This document shows, piece by piece, positions 41,954 through 49,988 of a stretch of DNA of 64,000 nucleotides. Origin of the DNA: Streptomyces durmitorensis. Lineage in GTDB: Bacteria; Actinomycetota; Actinomycetes; Streptomycetales; Streptomycetaceae. The notes beneath the pieces are model-generated. The model was not told where the DNA came from. It saw only the letters and a program-made list of their open reading frames with translations, and did no database searches. Each line of letters opens with the position of its first letter. Within the stretch, counting starts at the first letter, position 1. Both the position numbers and the translations under genes were made by a program. The DNA lies in contig NZ_CP097289.1 of the NCBI RefSeq assembly GCF_023498005.1, positions 6,448,001 to 6,512,000 of the forward strand. Direction: 5' to 3'.

Positions 41954-41991
41954 GCTGTTCACGCCAGCCCCAGCTGTTCACGCCAGCCCCA
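41954..41991. repeat. 19-bp tandem duplication at an acyltransferase stop codon
   Basis: GCTGTTCACGCCAGCCCCA occurs twice in a row (41954-41972 and 41973-41991). The second copy contains the stop of the acyltransferase-3 gene, so the duplication leaves a second copy of the last codons downstream. The gap 41845-41977 also holds a G-rich run (about 41898-41938) and nothing else clear. Confidence 0.9.
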
Positions 41992-43207
41992 GCGCGAAGA
42001 CCGCGAACCCCGCCGCCAGGAGGCTGGTGAGTGCCCGGCGCGCATACGTGGCCCGCTTCCACGGAGCCTCGAAGCCGCGGGTGTAGCGGCCTATCAGCAG
42101 CAGGAGCGCCCCGAAGACCGGAAGCCAGGCGATCCGGGCGGCTATCCAGCCCCAGGTGTCAGGGCCCGCCGTCAACCCGGGCACCGTGCCGCCGAGGAAC
42201 GAGCCGGGCACGGCCGCTGCGAGCATCGCCGTCTGGTGCCAGCACAGGATCGTCATCGCCGACAGGTTGATCACGACGACCGGTGCCCACAGGGCTGGCC
42301 TGCGCAGCAACTTGCCGATCCGCTCGCGCAACAGGATCGCCGCACCGCTCTGCGCGGCGGCCAGCGCCAGGACCAGCAGCGACGGGGGATGCGAATTCGT
42401 CCGCGCCTCACCCGGGACGCCGACCATCGACGCCGGATAGTGGAGGACGAGCAGCAGTGCGGCGAAGAGGGCCGTCCCTCCGACGAGCAGCAGCCACGCA
42501 CCGCGCCTGCTCAGCTTCTTCTCGCCCCAGCTGACGCCCAGTTGATAGGCGAACATCCAGCCGGGCAGCAGATTCAACAGGCTCAGCCAGGACGGCATGG
42601 TGTCCCCGAACGGGCCGTAGCGCAGGAAGTCGACGACGGCGACCGAGCCGAGCAGCGGCGCCGCGGCCCAGGCACCGAGTCGCTCGGCCGCCCTGATACA
42701 CCATGGGGTGAGCGCGGTGATCACCGCATAGATCCCGACGAACCACAGCGGCTGTATCACCAGCGTGGACCCCGTGCGCAGTGTCGTGCCCGGCACCCCC
42801 ATCGCGTACAGCACAGGGATCAACGCGGCCCAGACGGCGGTCACCCCGAGGACCGGACGACCGAGTCGCGCCACCCGCCCGCGAAGCCAACGCCCCGTGG
42901 ACTCGCCGCGCGCCGCCGCCCGGCGATACGAAAGGACGGAGGCATAGCCGCCGACCAGGAAGAAGATGCCGAGCATCTGCAGCACCCAGCTCAGCGGCGC
43001 GAAGAATCCGAACGAAGCCAGGGGACTGGCATTGTGTAGCGCGCCGCCCGCATCGAGGGTGAATCCGCCGAGCAGCCAGTGTCCGGTCGGCACGGCGAGC
43101 AGGGCGAGCGCACGCAGCCCGTCTATGGCCCGGTCGCGATGTGCGGGTGTCTTGGCGTCGATCGCCGACGCCGTGCTGCGCAGGGTGGTCAGCGGGGTGA
43201 GGCTCAT
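41978..43207 (-). CDS. Acyltransferase family 3 membrane protein
   Basis: 409 residues. It starts with the family signature RDRAIDGLRALALLAVPTGHWLLGGF (the His is the proposed acyl-transfer base). About ten hydrophobic helices follow (LQMLGIFFLVGGYASVLSY; VIQPLWFVGIYAVITALTPW; AWLLLVGGTALFAALLLVLHY), ending in a basic tail. Such enzymes O-acylate sugars, peptidoglycan or lipids from the cytoplasmic side. The ATG overlaps the stop of the DUF1023 hydrolase by four bases (43204-43207), so the two are translationally coupled. The substrate is unknown; a matched acylation/deacylation pair is an inference. Confidence 0.88.
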   Translation of the reverse strand: MSLTPLTTLRSTASAIDAKTPAHRDRAIDGLRALALLAVPTGHWLLGGFTLDAGGALHNASPLASFGFFAPLSWVLQMLGIFFLVGGYASVLSYRRAAARGESTGRWLRGRVARLGRPVLGVTAVWAALIPVLYAMGVPGTTLRTGSTLVIQPLWFVGIYAVITALTPWCIRAAERLGAWAAAPLLGSVAVVDFLRYGPFGDTMPSWLSLLNLLPGWMFAYQLGVSWGEKKLSRRGAWLLLVGGTALFAALLLVLHYPASMVGVPGEARTNSHPPSLLVLALAAAQSGAAILLRERIGKLLRRPALWAPVVVINLSAMTILCWHQTAMLAAAVPGSFLGGTVPGLTAGPDTWGWIAARIAWLPVFGALLLLIGRYTRGFEAPWKRATYARRALTSLLAAGFAVFALGLA

Positions 43208-44421
43208 GGCCGCTCTCCGATCGGGCGGGCGTCGGCGGCAGGCGCAGCCAGGGCGGTGCCGTTGTCCGGTGTGCCGTGGGCAGTGGGCTCCGCGATGGAG
43301 GCGAAGGCCTTGAGGGAATCCGTCCCCGGGGCGAAGTAGCCGGTGTGGCCCTCGGCTCGCTCCGCGGGAACCCGTCGGGCGCCGAATGCGGGGTCGGCCG
43401 GGTCCTCGCCATGGCCGAGGCCGAACAGCTCGACGTTCGGCACGTCACCGATCCAGTCGCTGTCGTCCTTGGCCGCCCAGACGCGGGCGGAGGTGTGCAG
43501 ATCGGCCACGCTGTCCGCACGCATGCCGGGGGAGCCGAGCACCACCAGGTCGGACGCCGTCAGTTGTGGAGCCGCCAAGCCGCACACCACGGAGCCGTAG
43601 CTGTGGCAGAACACCGCGGGGCGTGGGGTGCCTGAGGCTGTCAGGCCCTGCACAAACCGGGCGAGTCGGGGCGCGCCGGCCTGCGCGAGCCGTCCCGTCG
43701 CGGCGTCGGGGCCGAGGCCGACCGGAGTGGTGTATCCGACCCAGGCCACCACGGCTGTGTCGTTGCCCGCCGCGGCGTGCAGGGAGCGTGCCATCCCGGC
43801 CGGTGTGCCGTACTCGTCGGTCGAGCGGTCGAAGGTGCTCAGATCTATGTCGGATCCCGGCACGACAACGGATACGTGCTTGGCGCCCGTCAAGTCCCCG
43901 TATACCGCAGCCACTTGTCCTCTGCCGCGCGGATCGAAGGCGAGTATCTGGCGATCGGGTGCGAGGAGCTGTTCGTAACGCGTGACGAGAGAGCGGGCCC
44001 GCTCGTGGTCCTGCAGGGTGAGGCTCGGGTCGCTCAGGCGGGCCCGCTCGCGGGCGCGCTCGGCTTTCAGGGAAAGGGAGTTGGCCTCGAACCGCAGGGC
44101 GGTCGGGGCGCCGTCCAGATTGCCGACGACCGAGGGGTGCCGGGTGGCCAGGCTGTGCTGCTGCGCCTCGCTCAACGAGTCGAAGAACGCGGCGACTCGG
44201 GCGGGGGAGGCGGTCGCCGGATCCGGCAGCCGAACCCCCCACGTATGGTCCGCGCGCCAGGCCTGCGTGCCCGGTGGCGGGCCCGTGAGCGGCTGCTGTT
44301 CGTTGCCGACGGCCCAACCGGCCGTGCCGGCCACGATCGTCGTCGTGAGCGCCGCGGCGATCAGCGTCCGCTTGCTGCGGGTCTTCCAGCTCCTGCGGGC
44401 TTTCCAAGAACGAAGGCGCAT
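43204..44421 (-). CDS. DUF1023 alpha/beta hydrolase (copy A)
   Basis: 405 residues. An N-terminal membrane/signal segment (TLIAAALTTTIVAGTAGWAVG) follows a basic start, so the protein is outside or membrane-tethered. The DUF1023 domain has the nucleophile elbow PAVFCHSYGSVVCGLAA, a strand region QILAFDPRGRGQVAAVYGDL, and DSDWIGDVPNVELFGLGHGEDPADPAFGARR with the GHTGYFAPGTDSL catalytic-His region. It is clearly paralogous to the protein at 47774. It is coupled to the acyltransferase-3 gene downstream. The leader contains ATACC/GGTAT boxes and a hairpin that covers the ribosome site. Confidence 0.88.
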   Translation of the reverse strand: MRLRSWKARRSWKTRSKRTLIAAALTTTIVAGTAGWAVGNEQQPLTGPPPGTQAWRADHTWGVRLPDPATASPARVAAFFDSLSEAQQHSLATRHPSVVGNLDGAPTALRFEANSLSLKAERARERARLSDPSLTLQDHERARSLVTRYEQLLAPDRQILAFDPRGRGQVAAVYGDLTGAKHVSVVVPGSDIDLSTFDRSTDEYGTPAGMARSLHAAAGNDTAVVAWVGYTTPVGLGPDAATGRLAQAGAPRLARFVQGLTASGTPRPAVFCHSYGSVVCGLAAPQLTASDLVVLGSPGMRADSVADLHTSARVWAAKDDSDWIGDVPNVELFGLGHGEDPADPAFGARRVPAERAEGHTGYFAPGTDSLKAFASIAEPTAHGTPDNGTALAAPAADARPIGERP

Positions 44422-44424
44422 GGC

Positions 44425-44499
44425 CCGTCTCCCTCCCCATCTCGTGGCACGCTCCGGCGTGACGAGGGGAAAAGTAGGGAGACGGTGCCCGGCGGCACC
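44425..44499 (-). promoter_or_regulatory. Structured 5' leader that can mask the ribosome site of the DUF1023 gene
   Basis: On the minus strand the ribosome site AGGGAGACGG (44434-44425, four bases before the ATG) is perfectly complementary to CCGTCTCCCT (44485-44476). Between them is a nested hairpin CTCGT-CACGC-CGGA-GCGTG-cc-ACGAG (44466-44441). A separate hairpin GGTGCC-GCCG-GGCACC (44499-44484) overlaps the distal strand by two bases, so it competes with the masking pair. This is a candidate translational switch; it could also be a chance fold or an attenuator. Confidence 0.45.
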
Positions 44500-44526
44500 T
44501 CACACTGGGGAGCCAACTCGCAGGTG

Positions 44527-44559
44527 ATACCGGGGTATGTGGACCTCATACCGCGGTAT
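44527..44559. promoter_or_regulatory. Two ATACC-NN-GGTAT boxes upstream of the DUF1023/acyltransferase operon
   Basis: ATACCGGGGTAT (44527-44538) and the perfect palindrome ATACCGCGGTAT (44548-44559), starting 21 bp apart (two helical turns). Similar boxes lie before the histidine kinase gene at 46683 and 46712. They are probably binding sites of the response regulator encoded next door. Confidence 0.65.
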
Positions 44560-44584
44560 AGGAGTGAGGGATTGAGCGAGGGGT

Positions 44585-45256
44585 CTACTGCTCTCCGGGC
44601 GTGATCAGACCGGACTCGTAGGCGAAGATCACGGCCTGTGCGCGGTCCCGCAGGTCCAACTTGGAGAGGACCTTGCCGATGTGGGTCTTCACCGTCTGCT
44701 CGGCGAGTACCAGGTGCTCGGCGATCTCCTGGTTGGAGAGGCCGCGTGCGATGAGCACCAATACCTCGGTCTCACGCGGGGTCAGGCCGTTCAGCCGCAG
44801 CGACTGGTCATTGCGTGGCCGCTGCTTGGCGAAGTCCGTGATCAGGCGGCGCGTCACCGACGGAGCGAGCAGCGCGTCGCCCGCCGCCACCACGCGTACC
44901 GCCGAGATCAGATCGGCGGGCGGGGCGTCCTTGAGGAGAAAGCCCGAGGCTCCGGCGCGCAGCGCCTCGTACACATAGTCGTCCACGTCGAAGGTGGTGA
45001 GCATCAGGACCTTCGGCACGTGCACCACCCCGGGCGGTGGGTCCAACAGGGCGCGTGCCGCGACGAGTCCGTCCATCTCCGGCATCCGGACGTCCATCAG
45101 GACGACATCGGGATGGGTTTTGCGGCTGACGTCGACTCCGACCTTGCCGTTCGGCGCCTCGCCCACGACGTCGATGTCGCTCTGGGCCGCAAGGAGTGCG
45201 GCGAACCCGGCCCGCACCATGTTCTGGTCATCGACGATGATCACGCGGATGGTCAT
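44585..45256 (-). CDS. NarL/LuxR-family response regulator
   Basis: 223 residues. The receiver domain has DD at residues 9-10, the phosphoacceptor Asp55 in VVLMDVRMPEMDG, Thr in MLTTFDVDDY and Lys in GFLLKDAPP. The C-terminal LuxR HTH is NGLTPRETEVLVLIARGLSNQEIAEHLVLAEQTVKTHIGKVLSKLDLRDRAQAV. The start overlaps the kinase stop by four bases (45253-45256). It likely binds the ATACC-NN-GGTAT boxes on either side of the operon. Confidence 0.95.
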   Translation of the reverse strand: MTIRVIIVDDQNMVRAGFAALLAAQSDIDVVGEAPNGKVGVDVSRKTHPDVVLMDVRMPEMDGLVAARALLDPPPGVVHVPKVLMLTTFDVDDYVYEALRAGASGFLLKDAPPADLISAVRVVAAGDALLAPSVTRRLITDFAKQRPRNDQSLRLNGLTPRETEVLVLIARGLSNQEIAEHLVLAEQTVKTHIGKVLSKLDLRDRAQAVIFAYESGLITPGEQ

Positions 45257-46617
45257 GCGGTTCCGGAGTCCTTTTTCAGGAGGGGCAGTTGGGCCGCCAC
45301 ACGGAAGCCACCGTCGGGCAGCGGCCCGGCGTCGACCGTGCCGCCGACCAACCGTACGCGTTCGCGCATGCCGACGAGTCCGTGACCTGTGCCGCTGTGC
45401 TCCAACGAGTCGGGTGTCTCGGTGGGTGGGCCGTTGACCACGAGAATCAGCAGATGCTCTTCGTCCAGGGTCACGGTGATGGTGGTGTGCGCTCCCGGCG
45501 CGTGCCGCATCACGTTCGACAGGGCTTCCTGGACGATGCGGTACGCGGAAAGGTCGACGGCCGGTGTGACGTCGGCCAGCTGTGTGAGCACGGACAGTTC
45601 GGGGCGGGACAGATCGATCGGTATGCCGGCGCGCACCGTCGCTTCCACCAGATGCGGCAGCCTGCTGAGCCCGGGCTGCGGGGACCGCTCACCCGGTGTG
45701 TCCTCACTGCGCAGCACCGCGAGCAGCCGCCGCATCTCGGTGAGGGACTCACGGGCGCTGGCCGCGATGCTCCCGAACTCCTCACGTGCCGCGTCCGGAA
45801 GGCCGTCGAGGCGGTAGGGCGCGGAGTCCGCCTGCACCGTGATCACCGACATGTGGTGGGCAACGACATCGTGCAACTCCCGGGCGATGCGGGCCCGTTC
45901 TTCAAGGAGGGTGCGCTGGGCGCGCTCGGCCTCGCTGATGGTCTCCTGCTCGATGAGTCTGCGCTGTGCGTCGCCACGCTCACGGAGCAAGGCGCCGAGC
46001 AGCAGCGCGACACCGCTCAGCACGATCAGCAGCACGCTGGTGTCCTGGCCGCCGTCGTCGCGGAACGCACCGAGGACGAGGCTCACGACGACCGTGACGA
46101 GCCAGATGCCCAGGAGCGTGCGGCGGCTCTCGCGCAAGGACAGCAGGAGGCACACGACCACGTAACCCACGATGATCATGGCTGTCCAGGGGGCGGGCCG
46201 GTCGTGGCCCATGGACAGCGTCACGATCGCCCCGATGACATCCGCGACGATCAGGATGCACCAGGCGGCCAACGGACGGCTGACCGCCAGCAGCAGCGGT
46301 GCGGCCTGGGCGACGCCCAAGGCGCCCGCCAGACCGCCGTTCACCCCGTAGTCGTTCGTCAGCACCTGGGTGGTGACAGGGATGAGTGTCGCGACGAAGC
46401 CCAGCGCGGCGATGATGGGCATCAGCCGCATCCAGCGCTTGGGTGCACGGGCGAGGAGAGGCTCGGTCCGCCCCGCGGGCGTCGAGAGGAAGGTCCCTGC
46501 CCTGCCGAGCCCTTCGCGGACGCCCGCGGCCGCACGCTGAAGGGTGACCCCACGCCTGTCCGGCTCGGCGGCCGGTGTGCGGGGATCCTGGTCCGGTGGT
46601 GTCGATGAGCTGCTCAT
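45253..46617 (-). CDS. Sensor histidine kinase (HisKA_3, NarX/DesK type)
   Basis: 454 residues from the ATG at 46617. After a ~60-residue polar N-terminus come about five or six membrane helices (residues ~65-210), with no large extracellular domain, as in kinases that sense membrane or envelope state. The phosphoacceptor is His249 in ERARIARELHDVVAHHMSVI. The HATPase_c domain has YRIVQEALSNVMRHAPGA (N box) and GTGHGLVGMRERV (G box). It is four-base coupled to the response regulator. A longer start at 46644 is less likely. Confidence 0.93.
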   Translation of the reverse strand: MSSSSTPPDQDPRTPAAEPDRRGVTLQRAAAGVREGLGRAGTFLSTPAGRTEPLLARAPKRWMRLMPIIAALGFVATLIPVTTQVLTNDYGVNGGLAGALGVAQAAPLLLAVSRPLAAWCILIVADVIGAIVTLSMGHDRPAPWTAMIIVGYVVVCLLLSLRESRRTLLGIWLVTVVVSLVLGAFRDDGGQDTSVLLIVLSGVALLLGALLRERGDAQRRLIEQETISEAERAQRTLLEERARIARELHDVVAHHMSVITVQADSAPYRLDGLPDAAREEFGSIAASARESLTEMRRLLAVLRSEDTPGERSPQPGLSRLPHLVEATVRAGIPIDLSRPELSVLTQLADVTPAVDLSAYRIVQEALSNVMRHAPGAHTTITVTLDEEHLLILVVNGPPTETPDSLEHSGTGHGLVGMRERVRLVGGTVDAGPLPDGGFRVAAQLPLLKKDSGTA

Positions 46618-46682
46618 GGCCTGATCAGCGTAGACATGACGCACGCCGTGCGCCGTCGTACCGCGGAGCTGACCTGCACCTC

Positions 46683-46723
46683 ATACCCGGGTAGGAACCG
46701 GGCTTCTCGCGATACCCAGGTAT
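46683..46723. promoter_or_regulatory. Two ATACC-NN-GGTA boxes upstream of the kinase gene
   Basis: ATACCCGGGTAG (46683-46694, one mismatch from a palindrome) and ATACCCAGGTAT (46712-46723), starting 29 bp apart and 66-106 bp before the kinase ATG. They match the boxes at 44527-44559 and suggest autoregulation by the response regulator. Confidence 0.6.
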
Positions 46724-46756
46724 GACCCATGACCCATGACCCATGACCCATGCCCC
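46722..46756. repeat. 7-bp tandem repeat ATGACCC
   Basis: Four perfect ATGACCC copies (46722-46749) plus a degenerate fifth. The first copy overlaps the end of the ATACCCAGGTAT box. The rest of the gap to the SHOCT gene (to 46825) is C-rich with imperfect CAGCCC repeats and no clear terminator. Confidence 0.85.
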
Positions 46757-47773: not shown

Positions 47774-48985
47774 TCAGGCCACTGTCGTGCCGGAAAATTC
47801 CTTCCGGCACGCGTCATCCCCGCTCGCACACCGCACTGAGCGGTACGAACCAGTGCCGATGTCGGCGAAGTTGCTGAGGCTCTCCGTGCCCGGCTCGAAA
47901 TAGCCGGTGTGGCCGATCGCGCCCCGTGCGGACAGCACCCGCGCTCCGAAGTCCCGGGAGACGGGGTCGGCACCGTGGCCGAGCCCGCCGACCTCCATGT
48001 TTGGCACATCCTGGATCCAGTCGTCGCCGTCCCTGGTGGCCCAGATCCGGGCACCGGTGCCCAGCTGCGACGCCGTGTCGGCGCGCATGCCGGGGCTGCC
48101 CGCGACCGCGATGTCGGAGACGCGGGAGGGCAGCTGTCGTGCCGCGACCCCACACACAACGGAGCCGTAGCTGTGGCAGTACAGCGCGACAGGCGAGTGC
48201 CCCGGAAGCCCGCGCACCAATGAATTGAGCCGGATCGCGCCCTCATCCGCGCGCATGGACGTGGCCGCGTCCACACCGAGGCCGATGGGCGCGGTGTAGT
48301 CGGCCCAGGCGATCACGGCGGTACGCGCGCGTGGGCTCGCCGAGTGCTCCGCGCGGTACAGGGCCTTGGCCATGCCGACAGGCGCCGAGTACTTGCGGTT
48401 CGTCCGCTCGAAGGTCAGCAGGTTCGTGTCCACTCCGGGCACGACGACTGACACCCGGGACGCCTGGTCGAGGTCTCCGAAGACCTCGGCGATACGACCC
48501 GACCCCATGGGGTCGAAGGACAGGACCTGCCGACCCGGATGCATCATCACGCCGAAGCGCTTCATTCTGCGCTCCGCCTCCTGCTGCCCGAGAGGGGAGA
48601 GCCGGTTGTCGTGCATGCGCTTTCGCTCGGTCTTGCGCGCCTGATCAAGGGCGATGTGGTTCGCGCGATATCGCAGCTCTACAGGGGCACCGTTCATGTT
48701 GCCTACCGCAAGGGGATAGCGGGTGGCGAGTCGGGTGCGCTGTTGCGCGCTGAGCGAGGCGAAGAAGTGAGCGAGCTTGCCGGCCGGGGCAGTGGCGTCG
48801 GGCAGGGCCCGTCCGTTGATGTGCCCTTGCTCCCAGGCGGAGAGCGAGGCCGCGAGCGGCGATGCGGCGTCCTTGTGGTGGCGCACCGCGGTCCAGCCCG
48901 TGGTCGCCAGCATGACGAACACCACGGCGAGCGCAAGCAGTGCGCGCCAGGCGCTGAGTTGAGGGGAGGAGTCGAAGGAAGTCAC
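47774..48985 (-). CDS. DUF1023 alpha/beta hydrolase (copy B)
   Basis: 403 residues from the GTG at 48985 (TSFDSSPQLSAW), with a membrane/signal segment ALLALAVVFVMLATTGW. The nucleophile elbow is VALYCHSYGSVVCGVAARQL, with QVLSFDPMGSGRIAEVFGDL, DGDDWIQDVPNMEVGGLGHGADPVSRDFGARV and GHTGYFEPGTESLSNFADI. It parallels the protein at 43204 along its length, so it is an ancient duplicate within the locus. No ATACC boxes are seen before it. A TAGGGT sits 8 bp before the GTG, so a leaderless message is possible. The open frame extends to 49114 through AT-richer intergenic DNA. Confidence 0.86.
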   Translation of the reverse strand: MTSFDSSPQLSAWRALLALAVVFVMLATTGWTAVRHHKDAASPLAASLSAWEQGHINGRALPDATAPAGKLAHFFASLSAQQRTRLATRYPLAVGNMNGAPVELRYRANHIALDQARKTERKRMHDNRLSPLGQQEAERRMKRFGVMMHPGRQVLSFDPMGSGRIAEVFGDLDQASRVSVVVPGVDTNLLTFERTNRKYSAPVGMAKALYRAEHSASPRARTAVIAWADYTAPIGLGVDAATSMRADEGAIRLNSLVRGLPGHSPVALYCHSYGSVVCGVAARQLPSRVSDIAVAGSPGMRADTASQLGTGARIWATRDGDDWIQDVPNMEVGGLGHGADPVSRDFGARVLSARGAIGHTGYFEPGTESLSNFADIGTGSYRSVRCASGDDACRKEFSGTTVA

Positions 48986-49230
48986 TACGGAACACCCTAG
49001 GAGAATCGTGATGCCTACCGTGCACCGGGTGAGACAGATCACGTTTCCTGTGGGGTAATTGAGGCAAAGCGGGCGCACTCTGAGCACTTTCATCACACTC
49101 CGTAGGCGGAGCATGCGCGCAGCGCACTCGGAGCGCGCCGTTACTGACGGCGCATCAATCAGTCACTCAGCGTGTTGATTTGTTCGACGGGTTGATCTGC
49201 TCCGCAGTCCGACACGGAGTGCGCGCACCG

Positions 49231-49935
49231 TCACTCTGCGCGCCAGTTCTCCGCCAACGCGGGTCCCAGGTGGTCGAGATACGTCTCGGTGATCGCGCGG
49301 ATCGACTCCACGCTCGAGTCCTCGCCCGCACCCCAGAGCCGCCCGGTCACGCGCATCACTCCGCTGAACGCGGCCACCACCACGCGTGGTCGGGGGTCCG
49401 TGTCCAGGTCGAGCCCCTCGCGCTCGGCGATCACTCGCGCGATCTCTTCCTCCATCTCGATGGAGCGGCGCAGGTGGGCGGCGAGCAGGGAAGGGGTGGA
49501 CTCGATCATCTGATAGGTGCGCATGTGGAGTTCGACGGGGACCACCTCTTCGATGGACCGGCCCATCGCGTCCCAGGCGCCGATCACGGCTCCGCGCAGG
49601 GCGACGAACGGCGTTTCGTCTGCGGGGCGTTCGCGCAATGTCTCCACGAACCGCTGCTCCACCATCTCCTGCACGGCGAAGGCGGTCTCCTCCTTGTTGG
49701 TGAAGTAGCGGAAGAACGTGCGCTGGGAGACGTCGACGGCTTCGGCGATCTCGTCGACCGTCGTCTCCTCGTACCCCTTGGTCGTGAAGAGCTCGAGCGC
49801 CGCGCGCAGAAGTGCGTCACGGGTGCGCTGCTTCTTGCGCTCGCGCAGTCCGGGCCGGGAGGGCTCGCCGGAGATGTCTCCAGAGGCCTCGGCCCGCGGC
49901 TTCGCGGGGCCCGCCGCTCGCTGCCCGGTCCTCAC
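49231..49935 (-). CDS. TetR family regulator, probable repressor of the adjacent MFS exporter
   Basis: 234 residues from the GTG at 49935 with AGAGGGA six bases upstream; an ATG at 49974 is an alternative. The TetR HTH is TRDALLRAALELFTTKGYEETTVDEIAEAVDVSQRTFFRYFTNKEETAFAV. The N-terminal ~30 residues are a polar extension. The ligand domain is of the type seen with EmrB/QacA pumps. It diverges from the MFS gene across a 115-bp gap containing several palindromes that overlap both promoters. Confidence 0.9.
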   Translation of the reverse strand: MRTGQRAAGPAKPRAEASGDISGEPSRPGLRERKKQRTRDALLRAALELFTTKGYEETTVDEIAEAVDVSQRTFFRYFTNKEETAFAVQEMVEQRFVETLRERPADETPFVALRGAVIGAWDAMGRSIEEVVPVELHMRTYQMIESTPSLLAAHLRRSIEMEEEIARVIAEREGLDLDTDPRPRVVVAAFSGVMRVTGRLWGAGEDSSVESIRAITETYLDHLGPALAENWRAE

Positions 49936-49988
49936 GCCATGTCCCTCTTTCCGCCGTTCTGACCAGCTCACCATATCTGTGAGCTACG

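Follow-up and report, generated by a model that had tools for sequence, protein, structure and literature searches.

The window analysed here is the whole 64,000-nucleotide stretch of Streptomyces durmitorensis DNA (contig NZ_CP097289.1, positions 6,448,001 to 6,512,000), and the subject of our analysis is a set of short palindromic boxes at a two-component locus within it. At this locus, the genes of a sensor histidine kinase and of a NarL/FixJ-type response regulator, overlapping by 4 nt, are followed by those of an alpha/beta hydrolase (HYD1) and a membrane acyltransferase (AT3), which again overlap, all four lying on the minus strand (Table 1). The phospho-acceptor of the regulator is Asp55 in VVLMD, as counted by eye. 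The initial annotation had drawn attention to four copies of the box ATACC-NN-GGTAT, arranged in pairs upstream of the kinase and in the gap between the regulator and HYD1, and had suggested that the regulator controls both operons through them. All four are found where they had been placed, namely ATACCGGGGTAT at 44527, ATACCGCGGTAT at 44548, ATACCCGGGTAG, with one mismatch, at 46683 and ATACCCAGGTAT at 46712, and the second of these is a perfect palindrome, as had been said. The accompanying remark that there are no other copies holds for the gaps between the genes of the window and fails inside the response-regulator gene, where a one-mismatch copy lies at 44761.

Table 1. Genes and predicted promoter elements of the two-component locus (window coordinates; centres relative to predicted start sites)
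Feature	Coordinates	Strand	Remarks
Sensor histidine kinase	45253..46617	-	Pfam HisKA_3 (PF07730) and HATPase_c (PF02518), above cut-offs; start at ATG 46617 proposed
NarL/FixJ-type response regulator, proposed binder of the boxes	44585..45256	-	Pfam Response_reg (PF00072) and GerE (PF00196), above cut-offs
HYD1, alpha/beta hydrolase, gene 1 of the putative target operon	43204..44421	-	Pfam Abhydrolase_8; signal peptide by eye
AT3, membrane acyltransferase, gene 2 of the putative target operon	41978..43207	-	Pfam Acyl_transf_3
Box A, HYD1 promoter	44527..44538	-	ATACCCCGGTAT on the minus strand; centre about -68.5; position common to the HYD1 promoters of other species
Box B, HYD1 promoter	44498..44513	-	gctccccAGTGTGAGG; degenerate left arm; centre about -43.5
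Extra upstream box, HYD1 promoter	44548..44559	-	ATACCGCGGTAT; 21 bp from Box A; centre about -89.5
Predicted -10, HYD1 promoter	44471..44476	-	TACTTT
Box A, kinase/regulator operon promoter	46683..46694	-	CTACCCGGGTAT on the minus strand; centre about -68.5
Box B, kinase/regulator operon promoter	46654..46669	-	GCTCCGCGGTACGACG; centre about -43.5
Extra upstream box, kinase promoter	46712..46723	-	ATACCTGGGTAT on the minus strand; 29 bp from Box A; centre about -97.5
Predicted -10, kinase promoter	46627..46632	-	TACGCT

A whole-genome scan for the exact motif, which had been named as a check, finds ATACCNNGGTAT three times in the 9.86 Mb genome, all at this locus (44527, 44548 and 46712) and at no other place, the reversed control motif having no exact place at all. 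The mismatch count in the window is by itself weakly above chance: at two or fewer mismatches there are eight matches, as against a shuffle mean of 4.14, and eight were reached in 5 of 100 shuffles. Since this count is too weak to decide the matter, genome-wide and comparative tests were used instead. Allowing one mismatch in the genome of S. durmitorensis gives 24 places, as against 7 for the reversed control; seven of the 24 are ATACCCTGGTAG or its complement (four of these were read as loci, and all four lie in 16S rRNA), and twelve are situated outside this locus and are not of the rRNA type.

Conservation at orthologous loci, likewise set as a check, was assessed in 80 related loci obtained with the kinase as query, these being the 80 best among the 582 relatives found. 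In stretches of 250 nt, the exact core TACC-N2-GGTA is present upstream of the kinase match in 38 of 74 loci (47 with one mismatch), behind the regulator in 42 of 71 (51) and in front of HYD1 in 41 of 51 (50), as against means in dinucleotide shuffles of 0.08-0.11 for exact cores and 3.4-3.6 with one mismatch. What is more, when no motif is specified beforehand, TACC with a 2-bp gap emerges as the commonest palindrome with 4-bp arms in the HYD1 set (41 of 51, the next reaching 15), and it also tops the kinase set (38 of 74, the next reaching 21). With 5-bp arms, for which the HYD1 set alone was used, no palindrome dominates (the best reaches 12 of 51), because the HYD1 boxes mostly read CTACC..GGTAT.

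Alignment of the promoters shows that the conserved unit is larger than the boxes first noticed. Namely, it consists of Box A (approximately GTCATACC-NN-GGTATGAC), a strong palindrome, followed, usually 25 bp farther on, by Box B, gctccccGGTRTGACG, in which the left arm is degenerate and the right arm GGTRTGACG conserved, and then by a -10 hexamer. In other words, the boxes of the initial annotation are borne out and are incomplete, Box B, conserved in the comparison, having been missed at both promoters. With a 25-bp spacing and at most three mismatches, and with the window counted in, the element is present in 48 of 54 upstream regions of HYD1 and in 32 of 80 of the kinase; as background, 14 of 405 random 510-nt windows from the same loci reach this score, some of which may overlap true sites. 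When any spacing from 15 to 40 is allowed, a score of 17 or more out of 19 is reached in 44 of the 81 kinase upstream regions, and the spacing among these 44 is 25 bp in 30, 24 in 8, 26 and 32 in 2 each, and 29 and 31 in one each. In the genome of S. durmitorensis itself, the best bipartite match (46655-46693) has one mismatch and that at 44499-44537 has two, and these are the only two at two or fewer; at three or fewer there are four places, as against one for the control, the third and fourth (L117, L118; G and L numbers are our labels for genomes and loci) having three mismatches each. That the motif is a chance or compositional feature with no regulatory role is an explanation that could draw on the mildly high count in the window (8, mean 4.14) and on single exact matches at unrelated places in other genomes. 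We consider it exceedingly improbable in view of the restriction of the exact motif to this locus, of the presence of the core in 41 of 51 and 38 of 74 upstream regions at orthologous loci, as against shuffle means of about 0.1, and of the preferred 25-bp spacing to Box B.

The distances within the promoters are informative as well. If the TAnnnT hexamer is set as -12 to -7, Box B is centred at -43.5 and Box A at -68.5 in both promoters of the window, as counted from the predicted start sites, which would bring Box B close to a class II position, that is, a site near -41.5 beside region 4 of sigma; neither promoter has, by eye, a -35 at the usual distance. Among the related loci that have the element, the distance from the end of Box B to the beginning of TAnnnT is 22 nt for 45 of 48 HYD1 promoters; for the kinase promoters with a 25-bp spacing, 32 in all, it is 22 nt in 20 and 21 nt in 12. 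One could argue from this fixed distance of 21-22 nt to a -10-like hexamer that an alternative sigma factor uses the element as its core promoter, in which case it would not be an activator site. However, GGTRTGAC ends 21-22 nt before the -10, which is longer than the usual spacing of promoter elements to the -10, approximately 17; the -10 itself is an ordinary TAnnnT; Box A, lying farther upstream, is a two-fold palindrome and the best conserved part; and the distribution of the element follows the response regulator, as described below. For these reasons, a sigma-factor promoter strikes us as very improbable.

The position of the -10 also bears on the start of the kinase. In particular, a start at GTG 46644 would give an N-terminal extension (the 46615-46644 region) inside which the -10 lies, and, as this conserved hexamer is downstream of GTG 46644, the open reading frame from GTG is probably too long and this start was rejected. 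In 26 of the 32 loci with the element, an in-frame ATG follows 9 nt after the -10; of the remaining six, five have it at 8, 10 or 6 nt, and the other has its first ATG or GTG out of frame. The kinase likely starts at ATG 46617, with an mRNA predicted to be leaderless or nearly so.

The outermost boxes of the window (44548 and 46712) are extra copies that occur in a few loci, mostly near relatives. A second A-type box at the HYD1 promoter is also present in L016, L018 and L087 (21 bp) and in L017 (30 bp), and L016, the nearest relative, likewise has a box pair with the 29-bp distance at the kinase promoter. Directly upstream of the outer kinase box, at 46724-46753, a 7-bp unit reading CATGGGT on the minus strand stands in four tandem copies, which were not seen in the aligned stretch of L016.

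Co-occurrence with the regulator was examined in 61 genomes of the same genus, that of S. durmitorensis included, with the bipartite pattern at two or fewer mismatches and with regulator orthologues defined by at least 75% identity. The pattern has 54 places in 32 of the 61 genomes, as against 3 for the reversed control, and the element is found in 31 of the 33 genomes with the regulator, as against 1 of the 28 without it (G022). HYD1 follows 28 of the places and the kinase 12, and the remaining 14 are situated elsewhere. The element also stays with its target gene: in G051, HYD1 lies 4.7 Mb from the regulator and the element is still upstream of it, and where HYD1 is on a different contig from the regulator (G018, G060) or 12 kb away from it (G038), the element is kept in all three cases. 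In L053, L057, L074 and L084, HYD1-AT3 stands upstream of the kinase, with a box upstream of HYD1, and in L063, L066-L069 and L071 there are no hydrolase genes and the box upstream of the kinase is kept.

These observations are relevant to the question of which protein would recognize the boxes. A different regulator, such as the neighbouring TetR (49231-49974) or another of the NarL type, is conceivable, for the TetR gene lies nearby and often keeps this place in the neighbourhood, a palindrome is also a fitting site for a TetR dimer, and two bipartite matches elsewhere (G056:C15 and G009:5134449) stand beside a paralogous kinase-regulator pair, related regulators possibly reading similar DNA. 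Even so, the element is upstream of HYD1 in L053, L057 and L074, where the fetched flank has no TetR match; it is kept in G051, in which megabases separate HYD1 from the regulator; its distribution over the genomes goes with that of the response-regulator gene; and no box at two or fewer mismatches lies upstream of the TetR or the MFS gene in the window. We therefore regard recognition by another regulator as improbable. HYD2 (47774-49114), a paralogue of HYD1 at 48% identity, which together with a DUF4429/SHOCT gene is situated upstream of the kinase, likewise has no box at two or fewer mismatches in front of it in the scan of the window.

As for the two matches beside the paralogous pair (L155, L157), each has two mismatches and precedes a membrane-protein gene, these genes being 50% identical to each other. 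The adjoining paralogous regulator is 55-59% identical to that of the window, and, because two bipartite sites adjoin this pair, the paralogue may use a related operator there. As a separate observation, L091, L094 and L095 contain HYD1-AT3-like genes followed by two successive kinase-regulator pairs, with kinases 36-43% and regulators 58-63% identical to those of the window, and have no exact core.

What lies behind the element varies. In the 21 loci that have no HYD1 match and at least 250 nt of sequence after the regulator, an ABC Walker A motif is found downstream in 6, and the exact core stands behind the regulator in all 6, while among the 15 without an ABC gene it does so in 2 (L070 and L080), with a HYD2-like gene following in L070. 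Among the 14 places found elsewhere in the 61 genomes, those in G018 and G060 precede a PAF-acetylhydrolase-like protein (PF03403), that in G051 a short frame with a product resembling this protein at its N-terminus (by eye), that in G032 an ABC ATPase (by eye) and that in G004 a small membrane protein; two overlapping matches in G009 lie between the regulator and a methyltransferase gene, the place in G008 probably marks the start of a kinase gene close to where a contig ends, and G021:C9 ends at the end of its contig. The homologue of the PAF-acetylhydrolase-like protein in S. durmitorensis itself (L184, 46% identity) has no element in the stretch read, the best match, with the plus strand alone considered, having seven mismatches.

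A wider search of 246 genomes at one mismatch or fewer gives 83 genomes with a match and 115 places, as against 1 for the control. From these, 20 stretches with 23 places were read, chosen by eye as mostly not being kinase/HYD1 pairs and hence not a random sample; Pfam was run on L165, L166, L167, L171 and L174, and the other gene calls in these stretches were made by eye. The order regulator, element, ABC ATPase gene is seen in L164, L166, L168, L169, L170, L172, L173, L174 and L176, and the same arrangement is present in S. coelicoflavus (L073), with an FtsX-like permease by eye. In L166 (1026-1925) and L073 (8239-9099), the element is followed by an ABC exporter gene that replaces HYD1/AT3 behind the regulator. 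The element is followed by MFS genes in L165, L167 and L174, by an alpha/beta hydrolase in L171 and L172, by a PAF-acetylhydrolase-like protein in L177 and by HYD1 in L169, L175, L180 and L182; L178 has a membrane protein of the G004 type, L181 a kinase, L183 a context like that in G009, and L179 nothing clear.

Matches to the element also occur beyond the genus. A search of 121 genomes of the family at two or fewer mismatches gives a match in 45, with 9 places for the reversed control and some of the matches being chance-like; the 45 comprise 15 of the 28 genomes of the same genus and 30 of the 93 from other genera, of which 8 out of 16 are represented. Still farther away, a pair of Box A and Box B with the 25-bp spacing stands behind the regulator in Nocardioides (L070), and another in a metagenome-assembled genome of the Mycobacteriales (L088:5372-5420), where it is upstream of a membrane-protein gene preceding the kinase. 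The latter gene encodes a sensor-like membrane protein, in which PF13796 falls just under its cut-off (27.4 vs 28.2 bits) and which is 29% identical to the putative target in G004.

Several results weigh against reading the boxes as activator sites of the adjacent regulator. To begin with, the 12-base box alone is unspecific in other genomes: its exact form has 29 places in 20 of the 61 genomes, as against 8 for the reversed control, and while the window's genes adjoin it in 6 of the 19 loci from other genomes, 13 have none of these genes beside it. Second, in 36 of 74 loci the 250 nt before the kinase match contain no exact core, and autoregulation is therefore not general. Third, G029 and G031 contain the regulator and no element at two or fewer mismatches; a three-mismatch site is present upstream of HYD1 in G029, and G031 has none at three or fewer in the stretch read. 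Fourth, 14 of the 54 bipartite places lie elsewhere, of which 3 are chance-like (G022, G002:C48 and G021:C7:32405) and 2 are those beside the paralogous pair, and L080 and L066 have an exact and a one-mismatch core, respectively, behind the regulator, although no hydrolase or ABC gene was recognized there. Fifth, the Fisher value for the association between regulator and element, 7e-14, is descriptive alone, because related genomes are not independent and because the species from which the pattern was derived may overlap the 61 genomes; the link is an association, with a pattern built from the same genus. Finally, a box at -43.5 could also repress.

That said, the proposal that the boxes serve the regulator at 44585-45256 as operators for its own operon and for the hydrolase/acyltransferase operon is supported by these sequence tests, namely by the restriction of the exact box, its conservation at orthologous loci, the co-occurrence in 61 genomes and the persistence of the element in front of relocated hydrolase genes. 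We put the probability that the boxes are operators of the adjacent response regulator, which would act as an activator through Box A and Box B, at roughly 0.87. We infer binding, its dependence on phosphorylation, activation and not repression, and cooperativity, and picture them as follows. A dimer of the phosphorylated regulator would bind the strong palindrome Box A at -68.5, and the occupancy of Box A would help a second binding event at the weaker Box B at -43.5, beside the sigma factor of RNA polymerase. Bound there, the regulator would switch on a promoter that has a -10 (TAcgcT / TACCTT) and, by eye, no usual -35. In S. durmitorensis, it would in this way turn on both its own kinase-regulator operon and the hydrolase/acyltransferase operon, with the extra upstream boxes (-89.5 and -97.5) adding occupancy.

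As to function, we suggest, tentatively, that the system answers envelope stress or stress by lipophilic compounds, because of the nature of the putative targets (hydrolases, an acyltransferase and exporters) and the resemblance of the regulator to VraR. A broader picture, which we hold as somewhat less than probable, is that of a deeply conserved actinobacterial regulon, extending to L088 and L070, in which one bipartite operator and a near-leaderless kinase start are kept while the output genes are swapped from lineage to lineage, all of them detoxifying or expelling a membrane-active compound. The outputs would then comprise, with the same reservation, hydrolase and acyltransferase, a MacB-like ABC exporter, MFS exporters, a PAF-acetylhydrolase-like lipase and a sensor-like membrane protein, the system often being autoregulated. 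That one operator should be followed now by exporters, now by lipases or acyltransferases points to a common signal. What is more, as operator, promoter layout and gene set can be read from the sequence in many species, the regulon becomes predictable genome by genome.

To our knowledge, few Streptomyces regulators of the NarL type have a defined operator. The 7-2-7 site of Escherichia coli NarL, an inverted repeat of TACYYMT, shares with Box A the TACC/GGTA arms and the centre of 2 bp, but TACC and GGTA stand about 8 bp apart in it, as against 2 bp in Box A. The proximal site of DevR lies near -42.5, overlapping the -35, and its boxes differ from those of the window's system in sequence and in spacing (25 bp here). 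DevR (DosR) of Mycobacterium tuberculosis, likewise of the NarL type, has tandem Dev boxes, a primary and a secondary one, at the promoter of its own operon, according to the accessible part of PMC6868718. Compared with the DevR system, the kinase of the window has Pfam matches to kinase domains only. The MacRS consensus, TGAGTAC-nn-GTACTCA, differs from Box A in sequence, the two being compared unaligned. MacRS of S. coelicolor is a two-component system of Streptomyces for which a binding consensus has been established and membrane-protein targets are described, according to the accessible part of a review (PMC9739842), the main text of which, as far as available, contains neither "palindrom" nor "GGTA". 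Searches for the motif as text (TACCNNGGTA, GTCATACC, GGTATGAC and variants) gave no relevant description in literature from which subscription journals were mostly absent, so that its absence from print is not shown, and within the same reach nothing was found on this gene content.

Finally, the solved chains nearest to the regulator by sequence are named VraR, and VraR/LiaR, as well as AbrB1/B2 of S. coelicolor (SCO2165/66), share its domain layout of a receiver and a LuxR-type helix-turn-helix. The kinase scores 37.7 bits with the LiaS equivalog (NF052531), the cut-off of which is 450, and for the regulator no NCBIfam cut-off is reached among the matches listed (25 of 81 families), the best of these being NarL with 163.5 bits vs a cut-off of 250. 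Of the Streptomyces systems described, AbrB1/B2 is the closest that we found. According to the accessible part of PMC7581861, it is a VraR/LiaR homologue, and no motif was detected for AbrB1. Identity with it is unlikely: the residues quoted there for AbrB1 are Leu13, Leu14 and Val22, whereas the window's regulator has, by eye, Met13, Val14 and Leu22, and is therefore probably not AbrB1. The S. coelicoflavus orthologue (L073) likewise differs from AbrB1 at the quoted residues.

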